64,000 bases of DNA, from NCBI GenBank assembly GCA_947503305.1, contig CANNDF010000002.1, positions 1-64,000 of the forward strand, written 5' to 3'. The translations under genes were made by a program, and so were the position numbers. How positions within the stretch are numbered: position 1 is the stretch's first letter; each line of letters begins with the position of its first letter. Below the pieces are notes generated by a model. The model saw nothing but the letters and a program-made list of their open reading frames with translations, had not been told where the DNA came from and did not search any database. Shown piece after piece: positions 2,285-62,480 of this stretch. The stretch is from an uncultured Dokdonia sp. GTDB lineage: Bacteria; Bacteroidota; Bacteroidia; Flavobacteriales; Flavobacteriaceae.

Positions 2285-4234
2285 ATGAAAAAAACACTAC
2301 TATATAACCTTATACTTATCCTTTCCATAGGAATGATACATACTTCATACGGGCAAGAAGGAACAACTAAAAAAGCAGAAAAAAGATTTGGAAATTATGC
2401 CTATGTAGATGCTCGCAATTTATATGAACGTGTAGCAAAAAATGGATTTACATCTCCAGAAGTACTTAAGCATCTGGGGGATTCCTATTATTTTACATCT
2501 GAGTATCGCAATGCAGTACAATGGTATGGAAAATTAATTGCTACAGATAGCATAGAAGTAGCGCCTGAGTATTATTTCAGGTATGCCCAGGCTTTAAAAA
2601 GTGTAGAGCGGTATGAAGAAGCAGATCAAATGATGGATCTTTTTGAAAACGCAAATACCAATGATAGTCGAGGTAAGATGTATACCAAAGAGAGGGATTA
2701 TCTTGCAGAAATTGAGAAACAATCAGGACGGTTTTCTATAAAAACGACCCATTTTAATTCAGAACTACAAGATTTTAGCCCTAGTTTTTATGGAGATAGA
2801 TTGGTGTTTTCTTCAAATAGGGAGGATCGCACAGGAGGCCTTATACATGACTGGAACGAGCAACCTTTTTTAGATTTATATATAGTCGATGATCCAGAAG
2901 GTGATACAAATACAGTACATAAACTTGAAGGTGATGTAAATACAAAATACCATGAAAGTAGCTCAGCATTTAATAGTAATGGAGATATTATGTACTTCAC
3001 CCGTAATAACTATGCCAGTAAAAAATTGAAACGTGATAATGCGGGAACGAGCAAACTTAAATTATATAGAAGCTTTCGCGAAAACGGAAAATGGGCTACT
3101 GCAGAAGAATTACCTTTTAATAGTGATGAGTATTCTGTAGCACATCCAGCATTAAGTCCAGATGGTGAAACATTATATTTTGCGTCTGATATGCCGGGTA
3201 CAGTAGGATTATCAGATATATGGAAAGTTGCTATAAACACCGACGGATCGTTTGGGACACCAGAAAATCTAGGTACTACAATAAATACAGAAGGAAGAGA
3301 AACATTTCCTTTTATAAGTAGTGAAGGACAGTTGTTTTTTGCTACAGACGGACATATAGGTCTTGGAGGTCTGGACGTCTTTGTTACTCAAATAGAAGAA
3401 GATGACACTATAGGAGACGTCTATAACGTAGGGCGCCCAGTAAATAGTAGTGCAGATGATTTTGGATTGATATTACATGCAGAAAAGGGAGTAGGTTATT
3501 TTTCTTCAAGTCGTGCTACGGGAATAGGGAATGATGATATTTATACGATTCAGCGACTTGAAAAACTCATTGTTGCCTGTAAACAATCTATAGTAGGAGT
3601 TACTAAAAACACAAAAACAAATGCAATTATACCAAATGCCCAAGTAGTAGTAAGAGACACAAATGGAGCTATTCTAGCAGAAACAGTATCTGATAGAAAC
3701 GGCGCCTATCAATTTGAAAATCAAAACTGTAATACATTAGTATCTGTACGGGCGCAAAAAGAAGGCTATGAGCCAGCAGAAGTAACCATTCAGACCGACG
3801 GAGAATTAGATCGTGTGATAGAGAGAGATCTTTATTTAGAACCTAAAGCTGTGATTTCTGTAGGGTCAGACTTAACTAAAGTTCTCAACCTCAACCCCAT
3901 TTATTTTGACTTGGATAAGTCATTTATTCGCCCTGATGCAGCAGCCGAATTGGAAAAAGTAGTGGCTGTAATGCAACAAAACCCAAACCTTAAAATAGAT
4001 GTCCGTTCGCATACAGATAGTCGTGGAAGGGATGGTTACAACTTATCGCTATCACAACGTAGAAATCTATCTACCAAAGAATACATTATAAGCAGAGGCA
4101 TTTCTTCAAGCAGAATTACTGGAAATGGATATGGAGAAACACAGCTGATCAATCAATGTTCAAATGGAGTACAATGTTCTGAAGAAGAACATCAACTTAA
4201 TAGAAGAAGTGAGTTTATCGTTGTGGCTAATTGA
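2285..4234 (+). CDS. OmpA family protein with TPR, PD40 beta-propeller and carboxypeptidase-regulatory-like domain (PorE-like)
   Basis: Signal peptide, PD40-like repeats (SPDGETLYFASDMPGTVGLSDIWK), C-terminal OmpA domain (YFDLDKSFIRPDAAAELEKV...RSHTDSRGRDGYNLSLSQRR). Confidence 0.88.
   Translation: MKKTLLYNLILILSIGMIHTSYGQEGTTKKAEKRFGNYAYVDARNLYERVAKNGFTSPEVLKHLGDSYYFTSEYRNAVQWYGKLIATDSIEVAPEYYFRYAQALKSVERYEEADQMMDLFENANTNDSRGKMYTKERDYLAEIEKQSGRFSIKTTHFNSELQDFSPSFYGDRLVFSSNREDRTGGLIHDWNEQPFLDLYIVDDPEGDTNTVHKLEGDVNTKYHESSSAFNSNGDIMYFTRNNYASKKLKRDNAGTSKLKLYRSFRENGKWATAEELPFNSDEYSVAHPALSPDGETLYFASDMPGTVGLSDIWKVAINTDGSFGTPENLGTTINTEGRETFPFISSEGQLFFATDGHIGLGGLDVFVTQIEEDDTIGDVYNVGRPVNSSADDFGLILHAEKGVGYFSSSRATGIGNDDIYTIQRLEKLIVACKQSIVGVTKNTKTNAIIPNAQVVVRDTNGAILAETVSDRNGAYQFENQNCNTLVSVRAQKEGYEPAEVTIQTDGELDRVIERDLYLEPKAVISVGSDLTKVLNLNPIYFDLDKSFIRPDAAAELEKVVAVMQQNPNLKIDVRSHTDSRGRDGYNLSLSQRRNLSTKEYIISRGISSSRITGNGYGETQLINQCSNGVQCSEEEHQLNRRSEFIVVAN
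3072..3085. repeat. Near copy of dispersed palindrome (GCTTTCGCGAAAAC)
   Basis: 13/14 identity to GCTTTCGCGAAAGC, inside the OmpA-family CDS. Confidence 0.7.
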
Positions 4235-4309: not shown

Positions 4310-4323
4310 GCTTTCGCGAAAGC
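4310..4323. repeat. Dispersed palindrome GCTTTCGCGAAAGC
   Basis: Exact copy; extended perfect palindrome TACGCTTTCGCGAAAGCGTA 4307-4326. Confidence 0.97.
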
Positions 4324-6893: not shown

Positions 6894-8141
6894 ATGCGTA
6901 GGATCTACACTTTTTTTATATCTCTCGTGGAAGCAGTGTTGCCTCTTGTAGGCATGTTTAGCTCTAAAATGAAGCAATTTGTGATAGGCAGGAAAAACGT
7001 ATATGCCCAGTTACGTGCTATAATTCAACCTACAGACCGTGTGATATGGTTTCATGCAGCCTCTTTAGGAGAATATGAACAGGGAGTACCGGTTATGGAA
7101 GCTATCCAAAAACAATATCCAGCTTATAAAATAGTACTCACTTTTTTTTCACCATCAGGATATGAAGTAAAGAAGAATAACGCTTTCGCGAAAGCAACCG
7201 TATACCTCCCATTAGACACTCCTTCTAATGCTCGACAATTTTTAGATTGTATTCATCCAGAAATAGTGGTTTTTATTAAATATGAATTCTGGCCTAATTA
7301 TCTCACAGAACTTAAACGCAGAAATATTAAAACACTATTACTTTCAGGAGTTTTTAGTGAACGTCAATTGTTCTTTAAGCCCTATGGGAAATGGATGCTG
7401 AAAAGTCTAAAAGCCTTTGATCATTTTTTTGTTCAAGATCAATCATCATTGATAGCAGCTCAAAAACTAAACCTACAGAATGTAACGGTGAGTGGCGATA
7501 CACGATTTGATCGAGTTTCACATCAAATAGAGATGGATAATACCTTGGAATTTGTAGATGATTTTGTAGACAATACTCTATGTATTGTATGTGGTAGTAC
7601 ATGGCCTGAAGACGATAAAATCTTAGTTCCTTTTATTAATCAATCCAATGAAAAAGTTAAATATATCATTGCACCACATCAAATAAAACAAGAAAAGATA
7701 AAAGCACTTCAAGAGCAATTGCAGGTCAGAACAGTACTATTTTCTGAAAAGGCCACCAAAGCTCTTTCTGAATATGATGTGCTTATTATAGATACCATAG
7801 GTCTACTAACCAAAATATATAGCTATGCCTCTATTGCTTATGTAGGGGGTGCTATGGGAGGTACTGGACTACATAATATCTTAGAGCCCGCTACTTTTGG
7901 AGTTCCTATAGTGATAGGAAATATCTTTGAAAAATTTCCTGAAGCTAACCGTTTACAACAATTGGCAGGATTATATGCTGTAAAAAATGAAGATGAATTT
8001 GCAAAAATTTTAAGCAAACTGATTACCGATTCTAAATTTCGTTCACAAACAGGAATGATTGCTGGGCATTTTGTGAACAGCAATACGGGAGCTACACGTA
8101 CCGTTATGGATTATATAAAAGAGATGCATGAAATGGGGTAA
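6894..8141 (+). CDS. waaA: 3-deoxy-D-manno-octulosonic acid transferase
   Basis: IWFHAASLGEYEQGVPVMEAIQ, VFIKYEFWPNYL, VGGAMGGTGLHNILEPATFGVPIVIG. Confidence 0.92.
   Translation: MRRIYTFFISLVEAVLPLVGMFSSKMKQFVIGRKNVYAQLRAIIQPTDRVIWFHAASLGEYEQGVPVMEAIQKQYPAYKIVLTFFSPSGYEVKKNNAFAKATVYLPLDTPSNARQFLDCIHPEIVVFIKYEFWPNYLTELKRRNIKTLLLSGVFSERQLFFKPYGKWMLKSLKAFDHFFVQDQSSLIAAQKLNLQNVTVSGDTRFDRVSHQIEMDNTLEFVDDFVDNTLCIVCGSTWPEDDKILVPFINQSNEKVKYIIAPHQIKQEKIKALQEQLQVRTVLFSEKATKALSEYDVLIIDTIGLLTKIYSYASIAYVGGAMGGTGLHNILEPATFGVPIVIGNIFEKFPEANRLQQLAGLYAVKNEDEFAKILSKLITDSKFRSQTGMIAGHFVNSNTGATRTVMDYIKEMHEMG
7182..7195. repeat. Dispersed palindrome GCTTTCGCGAAAGC
   Basis: Exact copy inside waaA, encodes AFAKA. 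Confidence 0.97.
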
Positions 8142-9488: not shown

Positions 9489-9502
9489 GCTTTCGCGAAA
9501 GC
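9489..9502. repeat. Dispersed palindrome GCTTTCGCGAAAGC
   Basis: Exact copy, intergenic upstream of the DUF4199 gene. Confidence 0.97.
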
Positions 9503-13234: not shown

Positions 13235-14410
13235 TTAGTAATTTAAAATTTTTACTTCTTGATCATTTTTTACACTTCTTGCTCCTTCAATAATAATGCG
13301 ATCTCCATTGCTAAGCCCTTCTAAGATTTCGATCATATCTCCTTGTGATTTTCCTGTCTTAACAACCTGACGTTTGGCAATAGCGATATTTTTTTCGGCA
13401 TCCGCTTTCGCGAAAGCGGTATATACATACTGATCTCCTGTTGAATTTTCATTAATAACATTAAGTGGAATCATAATCGCATTTTCTGCTGTATAGTCAT
13501 TTATAGAAAGTCGTGCTGTAAGATTAGGTTTTACTTTTCCACCTTGACTGGGTACATCTACCTCTACTGTAAAGCTACGATTGGAAGGATTGATGTAATT
13601 TCCTGTCTGACGTACTTTTGAGTCTATAGTTTCTCCAAGTACAGGAAGTTCTACACTTACCTTTTTTCCAGGGACCACACTCGTGAGGTAGCTTTCTGGC
13701 ACCTCTGCAGATACGTACATATTGCTGAGGTTTACAATCCTAAAAACGGCTTGCCCTGGAGAGACAACAGTCCCTTGGTCTGTAATGACATCATCGATGA
13801 CTCCTGAAAAAGGAGCACGTATCGTTGTTTTTCCTAATTGGCTTTTTAATTGTTTTACTGCATTTTCTGACGATTCGTACTGGGACTTGGTCTGTAAATA
13901 CTGGATCTCAGAACCTATATTCTGTTCCCACAAACGTTTTTGACGCTCAAAAGTCGTTTTGGCTAGTGCAGCTTGAGATTCCAGCTGAGCTACTTGACTA
14001 CTTAAGCCTCCATCATCTATACGTGCTAAGGTCTGCCCTTTGGAAACACGTTGCCCTTCTTTTACATATACGTTAGTAAGGGTACCTTGATATTCAGGAT
14101 AGATGACTACATTTTGTTTAGTCTCAACATTTCCTTGGACCTCTATATAATGTTTAAATAGAGTGTCTTTTACGGTCATAGCGGTTACTAAAGTTTCATT
14201 TTTAGTACTGTCATTTTTCTTAAGAACTTCATCTAGTTGCGCTACTTGTGCATTAAGGGCAGTAATTTCTGCTTTAATTGCAGTTTTTTTAGCTTTAAGT
14301 TCGTCAATATTTCCTTTTTCAATAATACTTTCAACAGATTGAGATCCTTTATCTCCACCACAGGAGGCAAATAGAATGGCTGTGAATACGATGTAAATTG
14401 TGTGTCTCAT
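13235..14410 (-). CDS. Efflux RND transporter periplasmic adaptor subunit
   Basis: Lipoprotein signal (LFASCGG), VYVKEGQRVSKGQTLARID, TTIRAPFSGVIDDV. Confidence 0.95.
   Translation of the reverse strand: MRHTIYIVFTAILFASCGGDKGSQSVESIIEKGNIDELKAKKTAIKAEITALNAQVAQLDEVLKKNDSTKNETLVTAMTVKDTLFKHYIEVQGNVETKQNVVIYPEYQGTLTNVYVKEGQRVSKGQTLARIDDGGLSSQVAQLESQAALAKTTFERQKRLWEQNIGSEIQYLQTKSQYESSENAVKQLKSQLGKTTIRAPFSGVIDDVITDQGTVVSPGQAVFRIVNLSNMYVSAEVPESYLTSVVPGKKVSVELPVLGETIDSKVRQTGNYINPSNRSFTVEVDVPSQGGKVKPNLTARLSINDYTAENAIMIPLNVINENSTGDQYVYTAFAKADAEKNIAIAKRQVVKTGKSQGDMIEILEGLSNGDRIIIEGARSVKNDQEVKILNY
13404..13417. repeat. Dispersed palindrome GCTTTCGCGAAAGC
   Basis: Exact copy inside RND adaptor gene (AFAKA); extended CCGCTTTCGCGAAAGCGG. 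Confidence 0.97.
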
Positions 14411-20959: not shown

Positions 20960-20973
20960 GCTTTCGCGAAAGC
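20960..20973. repeat. Dispersed palindrome GCTTTCGCGAAAGC
   Basis: Exact copy between sucA and sucB. Confidence 0.97.
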
Positions 20974-22938: not shown

Positions 22939-22964
22939 CTATAAATGGATGAGAGAATATATAC

Positions 22965-22978
22965 GCTTTCGCGAAAGC
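22965..22978. repeat. Dispersed palindrome GCTTTCGCGAAAGC
   Basis: Exact copy between divergent promoters. Confidence 0.97.
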
Positions 22979-22995
22979 ATACAAAGATCATTTAC

Positions 22996-23003
22996 TATTT
23001 TTG
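22996..23003 (+). promoter_or_regulatory. Bacteroidota -7 element (TATTTTTG) for tatD-family gene
   Basis: TAnnTTTG consensus immediately upstream of ATG at 23008. Confidence 0.5.
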
Positions 23004-23007
23004 CGCC

Positions 23008-23784
23008 ATGTTTACAGATACACATACACATTTATATAGTGAAGCCTTTGATGAAGATCAAGCAGTAATGATACAACGGGCAATAGACGCCGGTGTATCT
23101 CGATTTTTTATTCCAGCCATAGATTCTGAATATACAGAGCGTATGTATGCACTCGAACGTAAATATCCAGAACAGGTATTTCTTATGATGGGTTTACATC
23201 CTACACATGTTAAAGAAAATTATAAAGATGAGTTAGCACATGTAGAAACTCAGTTTGCCTCTCGTTCTTTTTATGCAGTAGGTGAAATAGGAATTGATTT
23301 ATATTGGGATAGAACCACATTAGAGATACAACAAGATGCTTTTAGAAGGCAAATTCAACTGGCAAAAAAATATAAGCTACCTATTGTTATTCATTGTAGA
23401 GAAGCATTTGATGAAGTTTTTGAAGTCTTAGAAAGTGAGAAAAGTGAGGATCTTTTTGGAATTTTTCATTGCTTTACAGGAACAAAAGAGCATGCATTAA
23501 AAGCTATAGGGCATAACATGAAGCTTGGTATAGGAGGTGTAGTGACATTTAAGAATGGAAAAATAGATCAATTTTTATCAGAAATATCGTTAGAACATAT
23601 TGTCCTTGAAACCGATGCTCCCTATTTGAGCCCCGTACCTTTTCGAGGAAAACGTAACGAAAGTAGTTATGTAAAGTTGGTTGCAGAAAAGCTGGCTCAT
23701 ATATATCAATTACCTGTTGAAGAAATTGCTTTAATAACCTCACAAAATGCAGATACAATATTCCTTAATAAAAAGAAAATCTAA
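23008..23784 (+). CDS. TatD family hydrolase
   Basis: MFTDTHTHLYSEAF, IGEIGIDLYWD, PIVIHCREAFDE, FHCFTG, LETDAPYLSPVPFRGKRNES. Confidence 0.94.
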   Translation: MFTDTHTHLYSEAFDEDQAVMIQRAIDAGVSRFFIPAIDSEYTERMYALERKYPEQVFLMMGLHPTHVKENYKDELAHVETQFASRSFYAVGEIGIDLYWDRTTLEIQQDAFRRQIQLAKKYKLPIVIHCREAFDEVFEVLESEKSEDLFGIFHCFTGTKEHALKAIGHNMKLGIGGVVTFKNGKIDQFLSEISLEHIVLETDAPYLSPVPFRGKRNESSYVKLVAEKLAHIYQLPVEEIALITSQNADTIFLNKKKI

Positions 23785-26081: not shown

Positions 26082-26423
26082 TTATCTCACTAAAAACTTC
26101 TTTACAATTACATTTGTATCTGAGTTGATCTTAATAAAATACATCCCCTTCGCTAGCTTGTTGATATCAATTGTTTTTGAGTTATTAAACTCTCTTAGAT
26201 TTAAAGACATTAATATTTTTCCATTAACATCAGTGATCACAGCTTATTCTGACGTATTTGATCCTAGACACGAAAGTGTTACCTGATCTGTTGCTGGGTT
26301 AGGGTATAGGGTTATGCTTTCGCTAAAGCTTTCTTCTCCTGAGGAATTAGAACTCATACTAGAGCAGGTGATCCAGCTTTTCTCTCTAGGAATTACTCCT
26401 AATGTTTCGTTTCGAGTCTTTTT
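26082..26423 (-). pseudogene. Orphan, decayed T9SS type A sorting domain (C-terminal secretion signal) with internal stop
   Basis: Minus-strand reading: KKTRNETLGVIPREKSWITCSSMSSNSSGEESFSESITLYPNPATDQVTLSCLGSNTSE*AVITDVNGKILMSLNLREFNNSKTIDINKLAKGMYFIKINSDTNVIVKKFLVR*; in-frame TAA at 26244-26246, no frameshift; upstream stop at 26424-26426. Confidence 0.85.
26316..26329. repeat. Near copy of dispersed palindrome (GCTTTCGCTAAAGC)
   Basis: One mismatch; inside the T9SS domain pseudogene. Confidence 0.7.
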
Positions 26424-33048: not shown

Positions 33049-33819
33049 TTAGGGTTTGTATATGAGGTGTATTTGTGTACCTATTCCTTCTTCAGAAGAA
33101 ATAGTAATGGTTGCTCCTATAAGTTTGGCTCTAGATTCTATATTTGAAAGGCCTATTCCGTTTTTCGCTTTCGCGAAAGCATAATCAAAACCCACCCCAT
33201 TGTCTTTTGCATCTATAGTTAAAATCTCATTTTTATATATGACATTTACATCCAGTCGAGAAGCTTTAGAATGTTTAATAGTATTTGTAAAAAATTCTTG
33301 AAGTACTCTAAAAATAATAGTCTCTACTTTTTTATCGATATAAAAAGGGACGCCAGTTACATTTAATTCTGGTTTGAGATAGGCCATACGATTAAAACGT
33401 TCTAGTTCCATCTCAAGAGCTTCTGTAAGACTCATATTTTTAAGCGCCTCAGGGTTGATGAGTTTTGATAATGTGCGTATTTCTTTAAGTCCTTTTCCTA
33501 TGGTTGCAGCAGCCTCATCAAGATCTTTTTGATTACTACCCGCATTTTGTGTTTGTATTTTTGCAAGTGTGAGTAACTGGCCGATATTATCATGTAACTC
33601 CCAGCTGATATTCCGTAAGGTTTCTTCACGTATTTCTATTTGTGTTTCTGCAATCTCTTGTTCAAAACGCTTTTGAGCTTCTTGTTGTTCTATAACTAAG
33701 GTGTTTTTACGTTTCATAAACACAGAAAACAATACAGCAACTACTATTAACAATAATAAAACAATGGTAATAGTAACTAAAATTAGAAGCAGTGTGCTAT
33801 TTTCTGGGTTTTGTTGCAT
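33049..33819 (-). CDS. Sensor histidine kinase (HisKA_3 type)
   Basis: One TM helix; ISWELHDNIGQLLTLAKIQ; KDNGVGFDYAFAKAKNGIGLSNIESRAKLIGA; start taken at MQQNPENS. Confidence 0.92.
   Translation of the reverse strand: MQQNPENSTLLLILVTITIVLLLLIVVAVLFSVFMKRKNTLVIEQQEAQKRFEQEIAETQIEIREETLRNISWELHDNIGQLLTLAKIQTQNAGSNQKDLDEAAATIGKGLKEIRTLSKLINPEALKNMSLTEALEMELERFNRMAYLKPELNVTGVPFYIDKKVETIIFRVLQEFFTNTIKHSKASRLDVNVIYKNEILTIDAKDNGVGFDYAFAKAKNGIGLSNIESRAKLIGATITISSEEGIGTQIHLIYKP
33167..33180. repeat. Dispersed palindrome GCTTTCGCGAAAGC
   Basis: Exact copy inside histidine kinase gene (AFAKA). Confidence 0.97.
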
Positions 33820-33866
33820 TGATGCCAGAATTATAATATGCATGTAAGATACTTATTTCTATAAGG

Positions 33867-36849: not shown

Positions 36850-36863
36850 GCTTTCGCGAAAGC
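36850..36863. repeat. Dispersed palindrome GCTTTCGCGAAAGC
   Basis: Exact copy upstream of asnS promoter. Confidence 0.97.
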
Positions 36864-46085: not shown

Positions 46086-46099
46086 GCTTTCGCGAAAGC
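46086..46099. repeat. Dispersed palindrome GCTTTCGCGAAAGC
   Basis: Exact copy between rpsI and rpsB. Confidence 0.97.
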
Positions 46100-50587: not shown

Positions 50588-50601
50588 GCTTTCGCGAAAG
50601 C
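50588..50601. repeat. Dispersed palindrome GCTTTCGCGAAAGC
   Basis: Exact copy beside a bidirectional terminator, 4 nt from the TerC gene stop. Confidence 0.97.
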
Positions 50602-52689: not shown

Positions 52690-55536
52690 TCAATGCGCTT
52701 CTAGCCAGTTTTCTCCTAGTCCCACCTCAACATCTAGTGGTACTTTCATCGTAAATGCATTTTCCATTTCAGATTTAATAAGACCCTTTACTTTGTCAAG
52801 TTCATGTCGAGGGACATCAAAAACCAATTCATCATGTACTTGTAGTAGCATTTTTGTTTGATAGTTTCCAGTAGATAGTTTGTCATAAATATTAATCATT
52901 GCAATTTTGATAATATCAGCAGCACTTCCTTGAATAGGGGCATTTACAGCATTACGCTCTGCAGCTCCACGCACTATTGCATTTCCAGAATTGATATTCT
53001 TTAAATAACGGCGTCTGTCTAAAACTGTTTTTACATACCCATTATCCCTAGCAAAATCTACTTGTTCGCTCATATAGTTGCGTAACTTAGGATATGTTTT
53101 ATAATAAGTCTCTATAAGCTCTTTGGCTTCACTGCGCGATAAATCTGTCTGATTGCTTAATCCAAAAGCAGAAACCCCGTATATGATTCCAAAATTTACT
53201 GTCTTTGCATTGCTTCGCTGTTCCCTTGTGACTTCTTCTATAGGAACATTAAATACTTTTGCAGCGGTAGAAGCGTGAATGTCTTCACCATCTTGAAATG
53301 CTTTAATCATTGTCTCTTCCTCACTTAAGGCAGCAATAATACGAAGCTCAATTTGTGAGTAATCGGCAGCTAGTAGTGTATGATTTTTATCTCGGGGAAT
53401 AAATGCTTTCCGTACCTCTCGTCCTCGTTCCGTACGAATAGGAATATTCTGAAGGTTAGGATTATTAGAACTCAAGCGACCGGTAGCAGCAACAGTTTGC
53501 ATATAGTCTGTATGGACACGATGATCTGAGGCTACTTGAGAGGGCAATGCATCTACATACGTAGATTTAAGCTTTGTAAGACCTCTATAATCTAGTATTT
53601 TTTGAATAATAGCATGGTCTTTTGCTAGATAGGATAGTACATCTTCTGCCGTAGAGTATTGACCTGTTTTTGTTTTCTTTGGTTTATCAACAAGTTTCAT
53701 CTTGTCAAAAAGGATTTCTCCAAGTTGTTTGGGAGATCCTATATTAAATTCTTCTCCAGCTTCTGCATAAATTTCTGAAGTCAATCTAGTAATATCTTGG
53801 TCTAGAGTATCGGATAGGTTTTTTAGAAACGCAACATTTAAATTAATGCCCTCTAGCTCCATGGCTGCTAGCACTCTGAGTAATGGAACTTCGATCTCAT
53901 CAAATAATTTACGAGTCCCTGCATCCTTTAATTCTTTAGAAAAATGTTCTTTAAGTTGCCATGTAATATCTGCATCTTCTACGGCATATTCTGTTTGTTT
54001 TTCAAGAGATACATCTCTCATTGAAAGTTGATTTTTCCCTTTTTTACCGATAAGTTCTGTAATAGAAATAGGGGTGTAGTTTAAATAAGTTTCGGCCAGG
54101 ACATCCATATTATGGCGCATATCTGGATTAATGAGATAGTGCGCAAGCATGGTGTCAAAGAGCTTTCCATGCACGTTTAAATTGTATTTTGCCAATACTT
54201 TGATATCATATTTTAAATTTTGGCCTACCTTTTCAATAGTCTCAGATTCAAAAAATGGACGTAATTCTTCTATGATTGTTTGAGCGTCTTCTTTGTTGTC
54301 AGGAAAGGGGATATAAAACCCTTTCCCAGTTTCCCAAGAAAATGCAATCCCAACAAGTTCTGCGATAAGTGGGTCAATACTTGTTGTTTCTGTATCAAAG
54401 CATACAGAAGGTTGTTTCATAAGATTTTTAATAAATAGCTTTCGCGAAAGCGGACTATCTACAAATTGATAAAAATGCGAAGTATCTTTAATGGTCTTTC
54501 TTCCAGATCCAGCTTGCATAGCCTCTGCTGTAACTTCACTATCTCCCCCAAAAAGAGAAAACTGTCCAGCTCCTGCTGCAGGTGGTTTTTTAGCGCTTTT
54601 AGTAGGAGTAGTAGCAGTTTGTGTTATAGTGGATTCTCCAGAAAAAATCTTTATAAATTGCTCTTTTGTACGTCTAAATTCTAACTCGTCAAATACTTTG
54701 CCGACAGCCACAGCATCAGGATCTGATAATTCATAATCTGAGGCATTAAATGTGACATCGCAGTCTAGCATAATTGTAGCGAGTTGTTTAGATAATAGCC
54801 CTAGTTCAGCATTTGCTTCTACTTTTTCTTTCATCTTTCCCTTTAACTCATCGGTGTGAGCTAAGAGTCCTTCCATAGATCCATAGGCAGCAATAAATTT
54901 CTTTGCTGTTTTGTCTCCTACTCCTGGAAGTCCAGGGATATTATCTACACTATCTCCCATCATTCCCAGGTAATCAATTACTTGTTCTGGACGTTCTACT
55001 TCAAATCGTTTTTGAACCTCAGGAATTCCCCATATTTCAATACCATTACCCATACGGGCAGGTTTGTACATAAAGATATTTTCGGATACCAACTGTGCAT
55101 AATCCTTGTCAGGAGTTACCATGTATACTTTAAAACCTTCTTTTTCGGCTTGTTTTGATAAGGTGCCTATGAGGTCATCTGCTTCCACACCTGTACGTTC
55201 TATAATAGGAATGTGCATGGCTTTAAGAATTTGCTGTATATAAGGGACTGCAATTTTTATAGCTTCTGGAGTCTCATCTCTATTTGCTTTATATTCAGGA
55301 AAAACCTCAACACGTGCACTGCTTCCTCCTTTATCAAAGGCAACGGCCAAATGATCTGGTCGTTCTCTTTTTATTACATCGAGTAAAGAATTTGTAAATC
55401 CCATAATAGCAGATACATCCATCCCAGTACTGGTGATTCTTGGGTTTTTAATAAGGGCATAATATCCTCTAAATATCAAGGCAAAGGCATCGAGGAGGAA
55501 AAGTCGTTTTTGTGTATTGTCGTCGGTATTGGTCAC
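52690..55536 (-). CDS. polA: DNA polymerase I (GTG start)
   Basis: 5' nuclease, CFDTETTSIDPL exonuclease motif, DYSQIELRIIAALSEEE, FGIIYGVSAFGLS, QVHDELVFDVP; initiator codon reads GTG at 55536-55534. Confidence 0.97.
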   Translation of the reverse strand: MTNTDDNTQKRLFLLDAFALIFRGYYALIKNPRITSTGMDVSAIMGFTNSLLDVIKRERPDHLAVAFDKGGSSARVEVFPEYKANRDETPEAIKIAVPYIQQILKAMHIPIIERTGVEADDLIGTLSKQAEKEGFKVYMVTPDKDYAQLVSENIFMYKPARMGNGIEIWGIPEVQKRFEVERPEQVIDYLGMMGDSVDNIPGLPGVGDKTAKKFIAAYGSMEGLLAHTDELKGKMKEKVEANAELGLLSKQLATIMLDCDVTFNASDYELSDPDAVAVGKVFDELEFRRTKEQFIKIFSGESTITQTATTPTKSAKKPPAAGAGQFSLFGGDSEVTAEAMQAGSGRKTIKDTSHFYQFVDSPLSRKLFIKNLMKQPSVCFDTETTSIDPLIAELVGIAFSWETGKGFYIPFPDNKEDAQTIIEELRPFFESETIEKVGQNLKYDIKVLAKYNLNVHGKLFDTMLAHYLINPDMRHNMDVLAETYLNYTPISITELIGKKGKNQLSMRDVSLEKQTEYAVEDADITWQLKEHFSKELKDAGTRKLFDEIEVPLLRVLAAMELEGINLNVAFLKNLSDTLDQDITRLTSEIYAEAGEEFNIGSPKQLGEILFDKMKLVDKPKKTKTGQYSTAEDVLSYLAKDHAIIQKILDYRGLTKLKSTYVDALPSQVASDHRVHTDYMQTVAATGRLSSNNPNLQNIPIRTERGREVRKAFIPRDKNHTLLAADYSQIELRIIAALSEEETMIKAFQDGEDIHASTAAKVFNVPIEEVTREQRSNAKTVNFGIIYGVSAFGLSNQTDLSRSEAKELIETYYKTYPKLRNYMSEQVDFARDNGYVKTVLDRRRYLKNINSGNAIVRGAAERNAVNAPIQGSAADIIKIAMINIYDKLSTGNYQTKMLLQVHDELVFDVPRHELDKVKGLIKSEMENAFTMKVPLDVEVGLGENWLEAH
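54438..54451. repeat. Dispersed palindrome GCTTTCGCGAAAGC
   Basis: Exact copy inside polA, encodes LSRKL. Confidence 0.97.
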
Positions 55537-55551
55537 TATGGTTGTTTTTAC

Positions 55552-55565
55552 GCTTTCGCGAAAGC
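55552..55565. repeat. Dispersed palindrome GCTTTCGCGAAAGC
   Basis: Exact copy just upstream of the polA GTG start. Confidence 0.97.
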
Positions 55566-61475: not shown

Positions 61476-62480
61476 CTAGATCTTATTATAGTAGTCAGAA
61501 ACTATAACTTCAGGTTTGCCATCTTGATGTTTCATCATAGTAAAACCATCATGAATAGCATAACTTCCTGTTTCACCAGCTTTATTTATAGCAATATAGG
61601 CTACTTGAAAATTTTTATATCGATCTCCTTTTTTTATAATACGATGTATGGCTTCTTCGCAAGCCTCTTGAGGGTTCATACCATTACGCATTAATTCTAC
61701 AACCAGAAAACTGCCTACGGTTTTTAATACTTCTTCTCCCATTCCAGTAGCTACAGCAGCGCCTACTTCATTATCTACAAATAAACCAGAACCTATAATA
61801 GGGGAGTCACCTACACGTCCTTTCATTTTATAACCTAAACCTGAAGTAGTACAGACTCCAGCAATATCACCTTTATCGTCAATAGCAAGCATTCCGATAG
61901 TATCATGATTTTCGATATTAATTTCAGGTTTATAATCACTAGTTTTAAGCCACTCTTTCCATGCCTTTTCAGAAGCAGGAGTAAGTAATTTTTCTTTTTT
62001 AAACCCTTGTGAATAGGCAAATTCTTCGGCACCTTTACTTGCCATAATTACATGAGGTGTTTCCTCCATAACTTTTCGAGCAAGGGCAGCAACATGTACA
62101 ATGTTTTCAACAGCAAGCACAGCCCCATAATCTCCATCTGGAGACATCACGCAAGCGTCAAGAGTTACATTACCTTCACGATCGGGTGTAGCCCCTATAC
62201 CTACTGTAGTATTTTCTTCATTTGCTTCTTCTACAGCGACTCCAGAAATAATAGCATCTAGTGCAGAATTCCCCTGTTCAAGTAATTTTCCTGATGCATT
62301 ATTTGCCGAAGAGGTATTCCAAGTGCTTATAGATATAGGAGATGGTTTTATGAGTGGTTGCGTTTTCGCGAAAGCATCATTAGAGCCTTCCTTACCTCCT
62401 TCACAACCTAACGCTACCGTTCCAGCGACAATACCAGTTCCCGTAAGTACTGTGTTCTGTATAAATTTTCTTCTATTCAT
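61476..62480 (-). CDS. N(4)-(beta-N-acetylglucosaminyl)-L-asparaginase-like Ntn-hydrolase with Tat/lipoprotein-like signal
   Basis: MNRRKFIQNTVLTGTGIVAGTVALGCEGG; ENHDTIGMLAIDDKGDIAG nucleophile Thr; GRVGDSPIIGSGLFVDNEVGAAVATGMGEE. Confidence 0.92.
   Translation of the reverse strand: MNRRKFIQNTVLTGTGIVAGTVALGCEGGKEGSNDAFAKTQPLIKPSPISISTWNTSSANNASGKLLEQGNSALDAIISGVAVEEANEENTTVGIGATPDREGNVTLDACVMSPDGDYGAVLAVENIVHVAALARKVMEETPHVIMASKGAEEFAYSQGFKKEKLLTPASEKAWKEWLKTSDYKPEINIENHDTIGMLAIDDKGDIAGVCTTSGLGYKMKGRVGDSPIIGSGLFVDNEVGAAVATGMGEEVLKTVGSFLVVELMRNGMNPQEACEEAIHRIIKKGDRYKNFQVAYIAINKAGETGSYAIHDGFTMMKHQDGKPEVIVSDYYNKI
62362..62375. repeat. Near copy of dispersed palindrome (GTTTTCGCGAAAGC)
   Basis: One mismatch; in the post-lipobox linker of the Ntn-hydrolase gene (AFAKT). 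Confidence 0.75.

Follow-up and report, generated by a model that had tools for sequence, protein, structure and literature searches.

An evenly spaced 14-bp palindrome with C-poor arms, a candidate chromosome-organising site in Dokdonia and two related genera

In a 64 kb stretch of DNA from an uncultured Dokdonia sp. (positions 1–64,000 of contig CANNDF010000002.1, assembly GCA_947503305.1; hereafter the window) we found 12 exact copies of GCTTTCGCGAAAGC, a perfect palindrome of 14 letters for which shuffled sequences gave an expectation of 0. The 4.26 Mb genome from which the window derives contained 570 copies and its reversed control 0, corresponding to ~1 copy per 7.5 kb, and in a genome of a related genus (G276) the density was ~1 per 4 kb. 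From the composition, spacing and conservation of these copies we consider the chances about even that they are evenly spaced sites for a predicted chromosome-organising binding protein. The initial annotation of this DNA had rightly described the element as a 14-bp palindrome, whilst overlooking both the larger unit of ~54 bp to which it belongs and its spacing.

This unit consists of the core and ~20 bp on each side that, read towards the core, are nearly C-free. GC skew within the arms was ~+0.55 at 4–14 bp from the core, +0.34 to +0.44 at 15–20 bp and ~0 past 30 bp; it was alike in coding and intergenic copies, and absent at random control sites. In coding copies this composition bent all three codon positions. 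Between species the arms changed in sequence and remained poor in C, such that their composition, not their sequence, is held in common. A weak 3-bp phase was additionally visible at 4–18 bp, with preferences for T, A and G depending on distance, in intergenic copies as well (P = 4 × 10−13). The intergenic consensus widened to 20 bp, TACGCTTTCGCGAAAGCGTA, comprising the core and 3 bp per side, and the variants tolerated within the core were mainly C to T changes at positions 2 and 6. As TCGCGA showed no over-representation outside the 14-mer, the surplus belongs to the long word.

These features invite comparison with the highly iterated palindrome HIP1 (GCGATCGC) and the alternate cyanobacterial HIPs, which likewise are short, clade-limited palindromes in huge excess, with near-misses biased to certain positions (PMC4390886). 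By that analogy the word would be a by-product of methylation-directed mismatch repair, made and kept by a repair bias and by a methyltransferase whose target is a portion of the core. Such a model is in keeping with an iterated palindrome restricted to one clade and with variants that are mostly C to T, and Elhai's version of it foresees saturation at repair-range spacing (PMC4390886). HIP1, however, measures 8 bp and occurs about once per kb, whereas the Dokdonia word combines a 14-bp core with 3-bp extensions and 20-bp arms, and is found once per ~4–11 kb, in Flavobacteriaceae. A 54-bp unit would not be expected for a methylation mark, and the recognition-sized TCGCGA is in no excess outside the 14-mer. 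In a search that did not extend to the N4/N6 families, four of the six motif-rich genomes (G000, G001, G276 and G224) also lacked C5 methyltransferases (PF00145), and we disfavour such an enzyme as the reader of the word. We therefore regard an origin of this kind as improbable.

The copies keep apart from one another. In 1.2 Mb of the source contig only 9 intervals were shorter than 3 kb, against 47 expected from random placement with the same coding split, and 3 were shorter than 1 kb, against 19 expected. Over 200 kb of G276 the coefficient of variation of spacing was 0.39 compared with 0.97 for random placement, and all intervals lay between 0.57 and 7.45 kb; in G224, a single-contig genome of the related genus g193, there were no intervals below 1 kb where 5 were expected. 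Tolerated variants likewise stayed away from exact copies. Binning of the listed positions in G224 revealed no obvious regional limit, with 55 sampled copies spanning the whole contig. The longest motif-free gaps on contig C1, at 326185–389710 (64 kb) and 747503–823768 (76 kb), both contain type IV secretion system coupling proteins, and the latter also holds a TrwC relaxase, an Eco57I-type methylase and a phage integrase; on this gene content, we take both gaps to be conjugative islands.

Comparison with Dokdonia pacifica demonstrated that the word is held at the DNA level, within genes and between them. Nine of the 14 D. pacifica copies that could be aligned to the source genome were exact, although BLAST anchoring of these alignments may favour intact copies. 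Over these nine, core differences amounted to 0/126, whilst 4–20 bp flanks differed at 0.28 (intergenic) and 0.21 (coding) of positions and the surroundings at 0.16–0.27. The intergenic core at 55552–55565 was exact despite 17/40 differing flank bases, and that in a histidine kinase gene (33167–33180; gene 33049–33843, minus strand) was exact with 10/40 flank differences; a further intergenic core (46086–46099) was exact in D. pacifica and disrupted in another Dokdonia, G240.

Orthologous sites show how copies arise. In polA (52690–55536, minus strand), whose product is 87 % identical to its D. pacifica counterpart, the core at 54438–54451 encodes PLSRKLF and is identical in three of four Dokdonia; in the fourth (G240) a single synonymous substitution disrupts it. 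In nearly 100 relatives this site has other residues, mostly of the GMAMK/GMGTK type, and the 14-bp block was missing from none of the relatives in two overlapping searches (78 and 24 relatives, respectively). In waaA (core 7182–7195, full unit ~7162–7215), PLADV-type residues of relatives have become AFAKA in the source species and in D. pacifica, with the same codons in both, and G224 is two mismatches off. In the waaA gene of G240 (L381) the core is broken, and an insert of 21 nt comes after it in frame. A recQ gene (L032:12946–15030) contains two copies 1.4 kb apart, which are among the rare close pairs: the first is common to three Dokdonia, with a relative three mismatches off, and the second is confined to the source genome, with D. 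pacifica three transitions off. As the orthologues of polA, waaA and recQ align without gaps, copies arise by substitution and not insertion, and in the genes checked motif-poor genomes did not have the codons of the word.

This origin bears on the idea that the word is a mobile short palindrome, akin to repetitive extragenic palindromic (REP) elements or miniature inverted-repeat transposable elements, put in place by a transposase. There are hundreds of near-identical copies, and per kb they are ~5-fold enriched between genes over within them. Nevertheless, there was no insertion at the polA, waaA and two recQ sites, lost copies align as a rule without a 14-bp gap, and arms are alike in composition rather than sequence. 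Moreover, half of the copies are intragenic (79 of 158; genes beyond the window were called with a simple in-house ORF and codon-usage caller). Neither the insertion origin nor the extragenic location of REP/RAYT systems applies, and we disfavour this explanation as very unlikely. Yet less probable is an RNA hairpin acting as a terminator, attenuator or RNase site. The core is able to fold into a stem of 5 bp capped by a CGCG loop; however, 20 of 21 paired, compensatory variants had zero copies, stem-breaking single changes were commoner, and copies favoured neither convergent gene ends nor promoters. The 3′-end location and compensated stem of an intrinsic terminator are thus not found.

Within genes, the initial annotation had noted that copies mostly use the frame specifying AFAKA. 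This holds for three window genes, waaA (NNAFAKATVYLP), an RND (resistance–nodulation–division) adaptor gene (YTAFAKADAEKN; core 13404–13417, gene 13235–14410, minus strand) and the histidine kinase gene (DYAFAKAKNGIG), with polA correctly assigned to another frame, its motif (at about residue 361) lying just ahead of the 3′–5′ exonuclease domain that begins at residue 365 in Pfam. Pfam identified the four host proteins as a Kdo transferase, a HlyD/CusB adaptor, a HisKA_3/HATPase protein and DNA_pol_A. Across 1.34 Mb of the source genome the frames AFAKA, FRES and LSRK were used 47, 24 and 14 times (n = 85; P = 4 × 10−5 against equal use); the frames are therefore unequal, as proposed, but at 55 % AFAKA has only a bare majority. 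The same bias was seen in g193 (14/9/4) and in g11, the second related genus (11/9/3).

We sought the source of this bias by counting, per frame and by mismatch cut-off, near-matching sites in motif-free relatives. Sites with ≤ 6 mismatches were divided 0.57/0.24/0.19 over AFAKA/FRES/LSRK, in agreement with the tally (P = 0.67), and since this cut-off was picked post hoc, a greater supply of near-matching DNA is a good account of why the AFAKA frame leads, but no proof. Codon usage alone was rejected as a cause, as it predicts 0.77/0.20/0.04 and overshoots AFAKA (P = 5 × 10−11), as was amino-acid tolerance, for which BLOSUM similarity would put LSRK highest. The suggestion that copies occupy protein-tolerant positions was not supported: frame shares follow near-matching DNA, and the polA copy displaced a widely kept peptide.

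By contrast, the proposal that selection acts on the DNA word rather than the peptide was supported by the strict core within diverged flanks, by the effect of the arms on every codon position and by the peptides themselves. AFAKA occurred 68 times in the source-genome sample, 47 times with the exact word, and was absent from 78 relatives (327,668 codons); 24 of 26 FRES peptides were encoded by the exact word. The source proteome (L031–L050, L131–L170 and the window) contains 21 AFAKA peptides without the exact word, which are probably decayed copies. These 21 are also what one might cite for AFAKA as a selected peptide, the least credible of the explanations we considered: the peptide was absent from the relatives' codons, its proteins and positions are unrelated, the word is read in two other frames as well, and we found no AFAKA site conserved through synonymous codons in motif-free genomes. 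Our data thus support the view that AFAKA arises incidentally from a DNA signal present throughout the genome.

The word is abundant in only a narrow group. Four Dokdonia contained 570 (source), 903 (D. pacifica), 857 (G240) and 385 (a metagenome-assembled genome) copies, two g11 genomes 578 and 664, and g193 (G224) 408. The remaining Flavobacteriaceae searched had 0–6 copies in nearly all cases and 9–25 in a few, and other families 0–1. In a polA tree, Dokdonia, g11 and g193 clustered with Leeuwenhoekiella (5–25 copies; support 87/92). Where motif-poor Flavobacteriaceae (L171, L172, L175, L178, L180 and L182) had copies, these were concentrated in a metal-efflux locus with genes for an AcrB-type pump, an outer membrane channel, a heavy-metal P-type ATPase, Fur and a CusB-like adaptor, which we read as DNA transferred from a donor rich in the motif. 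Two copies exactly 933 bp apart are often present in the gene for the outer membrane channel. At least about 80 loci on viral contigs also carried a copy; these came without host data and were not used as evidence.

A protein bound at the sites, with a benefit that levels off over a few kb, is suggested by the palindromic core, the 20-bp consensus (roughly two turns of the helix), the near-absence of tolerated changes, the long symmetric arms and the mutual repulsion of copies. Copies are built by base substitution where the DNA already comes close to the word, and each would be bound by a dimeric protein that recognises this sequence and is confined to Dokdonia and the two related genera. One site per several kb would be useful and a second nearby would add nothing, as would suit a mark that organises the chromosome or anchors its domains; a role in chromosome organisation is our best single guess. 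It has parallels in the parS and Noc sites, dimer-bound palindromes with TTTC...GAAA half-sites, and in matS, the palindromic site scattered in the chromosome through which MatP organises it. The Dokdonia word differs from parS/Noc in half-site spacing, in having hundreds of copies along the chromosome and in lacking an additional ParB-domain protein: motif-rich genomes have one or two ParB_N proteins, no more than motif-poor ones, and an extra ParB-type reader was disfavoured. It differs from matS in not being confined to one region, as judged from the G224 sample. We did not find the 14-mer in the literature searched, and searches on Dokdonia or flavobacterial palindromes gave nothing relevant.

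A less probable, though still serious, candidate is self-recognition in natural transformation, whereby a competence receptor would favour DNA bearing the word and recombination would propagate it through molecular drive, as for the DNA uptake sequence (DUS) of Neisseria and the uptake signal sequence (USS) of Haemophilus. This would fit the substitution origin, a core stricter than its flanks, the lack of copies in foreign islands, the intergenic excess and a diminishing return per DNA fragment; ComEC is present, and Riemerella, a member of the family, is naturally competent (PMC7965970). DUS and Pasteurellaceae USS also have at least hundreds of copies per genome, some within reading frames, and a supposed substitution origin (PMC1939737). 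They are, however, non-palindromic, oriented words, whilst that of Dokdonia is palindromic, evenly spaced and flanked by long symmetric arms; uptake words (DUES) include no palindromes and are spaced less evenly than expected for compaction sites (PMC1939737). Nor is DUS known to have arms acting on all codon positions. ComEC itself was rejected as a marker gene, as it occurs in 25 of 25 genomes, motif-poor ones equally included, and is hence not diagnostic.

Several points weigh against the chromosome-organising role. Binding of the sites in the nucleoid is something we infer; surveys of ComEC, ParB-domain proteins and C5 methyltransferases yielded no reader protein; and an uptake or repair drive that saturates would also space copies evenly. 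The arms are weak, nearly lost, in G224 despite its 408 core copies; a related reader may there recognise a shorter stretch. Furthermore, the near-match account of frame use depends on the cut-off (P = 0.09 at ≤ 5 mismatches, failing at ≤ 4 with P = 0.0002), and the g11 frames depart from its expectation (P = 0.008, n = 23).

Eight of the 12 exact window copies are intergenic. Besides those at 46086 and 55552, they lie at 4310–4323 and 50588–50601 (both between convergent genes), 20960–20973 (between codirectional genes), 9489–9502, 36850–36863 and 22965–22978, the last being at the 5′ edge of an ORF (22945–23784) and probably intergenic, as MFTDTHTHLY resembles the real start. The window also contains one copy with two mismatches and three with one: GCTTTCGCGAAAAC (3072–3085, within ORF 2285–4234), GCTTTCGCTAAAGC (26316–26329) and a C to T variant at position 2 (62362–62375), read earlier as AFAKT, in a gene (61476–62480) whose Pfam match to Asparaginase_2 agrees with its annotation as an exported N-terminal nucleophile hydrolase.

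More tentatively, the word may be a chromosome-wide ruler, a symmetric 54-bp site under selection both for its sequence and for its spacing, through which a predicted reader would organise the chromosome in three genera and for which conserved residues have been rewritten. Among known genome-wide DNA words, few appear to be under selection for their spacing as such. As this one occurs in three genera and not in their close relatives, its gain, loss and reader can be sought by comparison. It alters proteins, including those of polA, waaA and recQ, for reasons apart from their function, and it marks native as opposed to recently acquired DNA, together with the direction of gene transfer.
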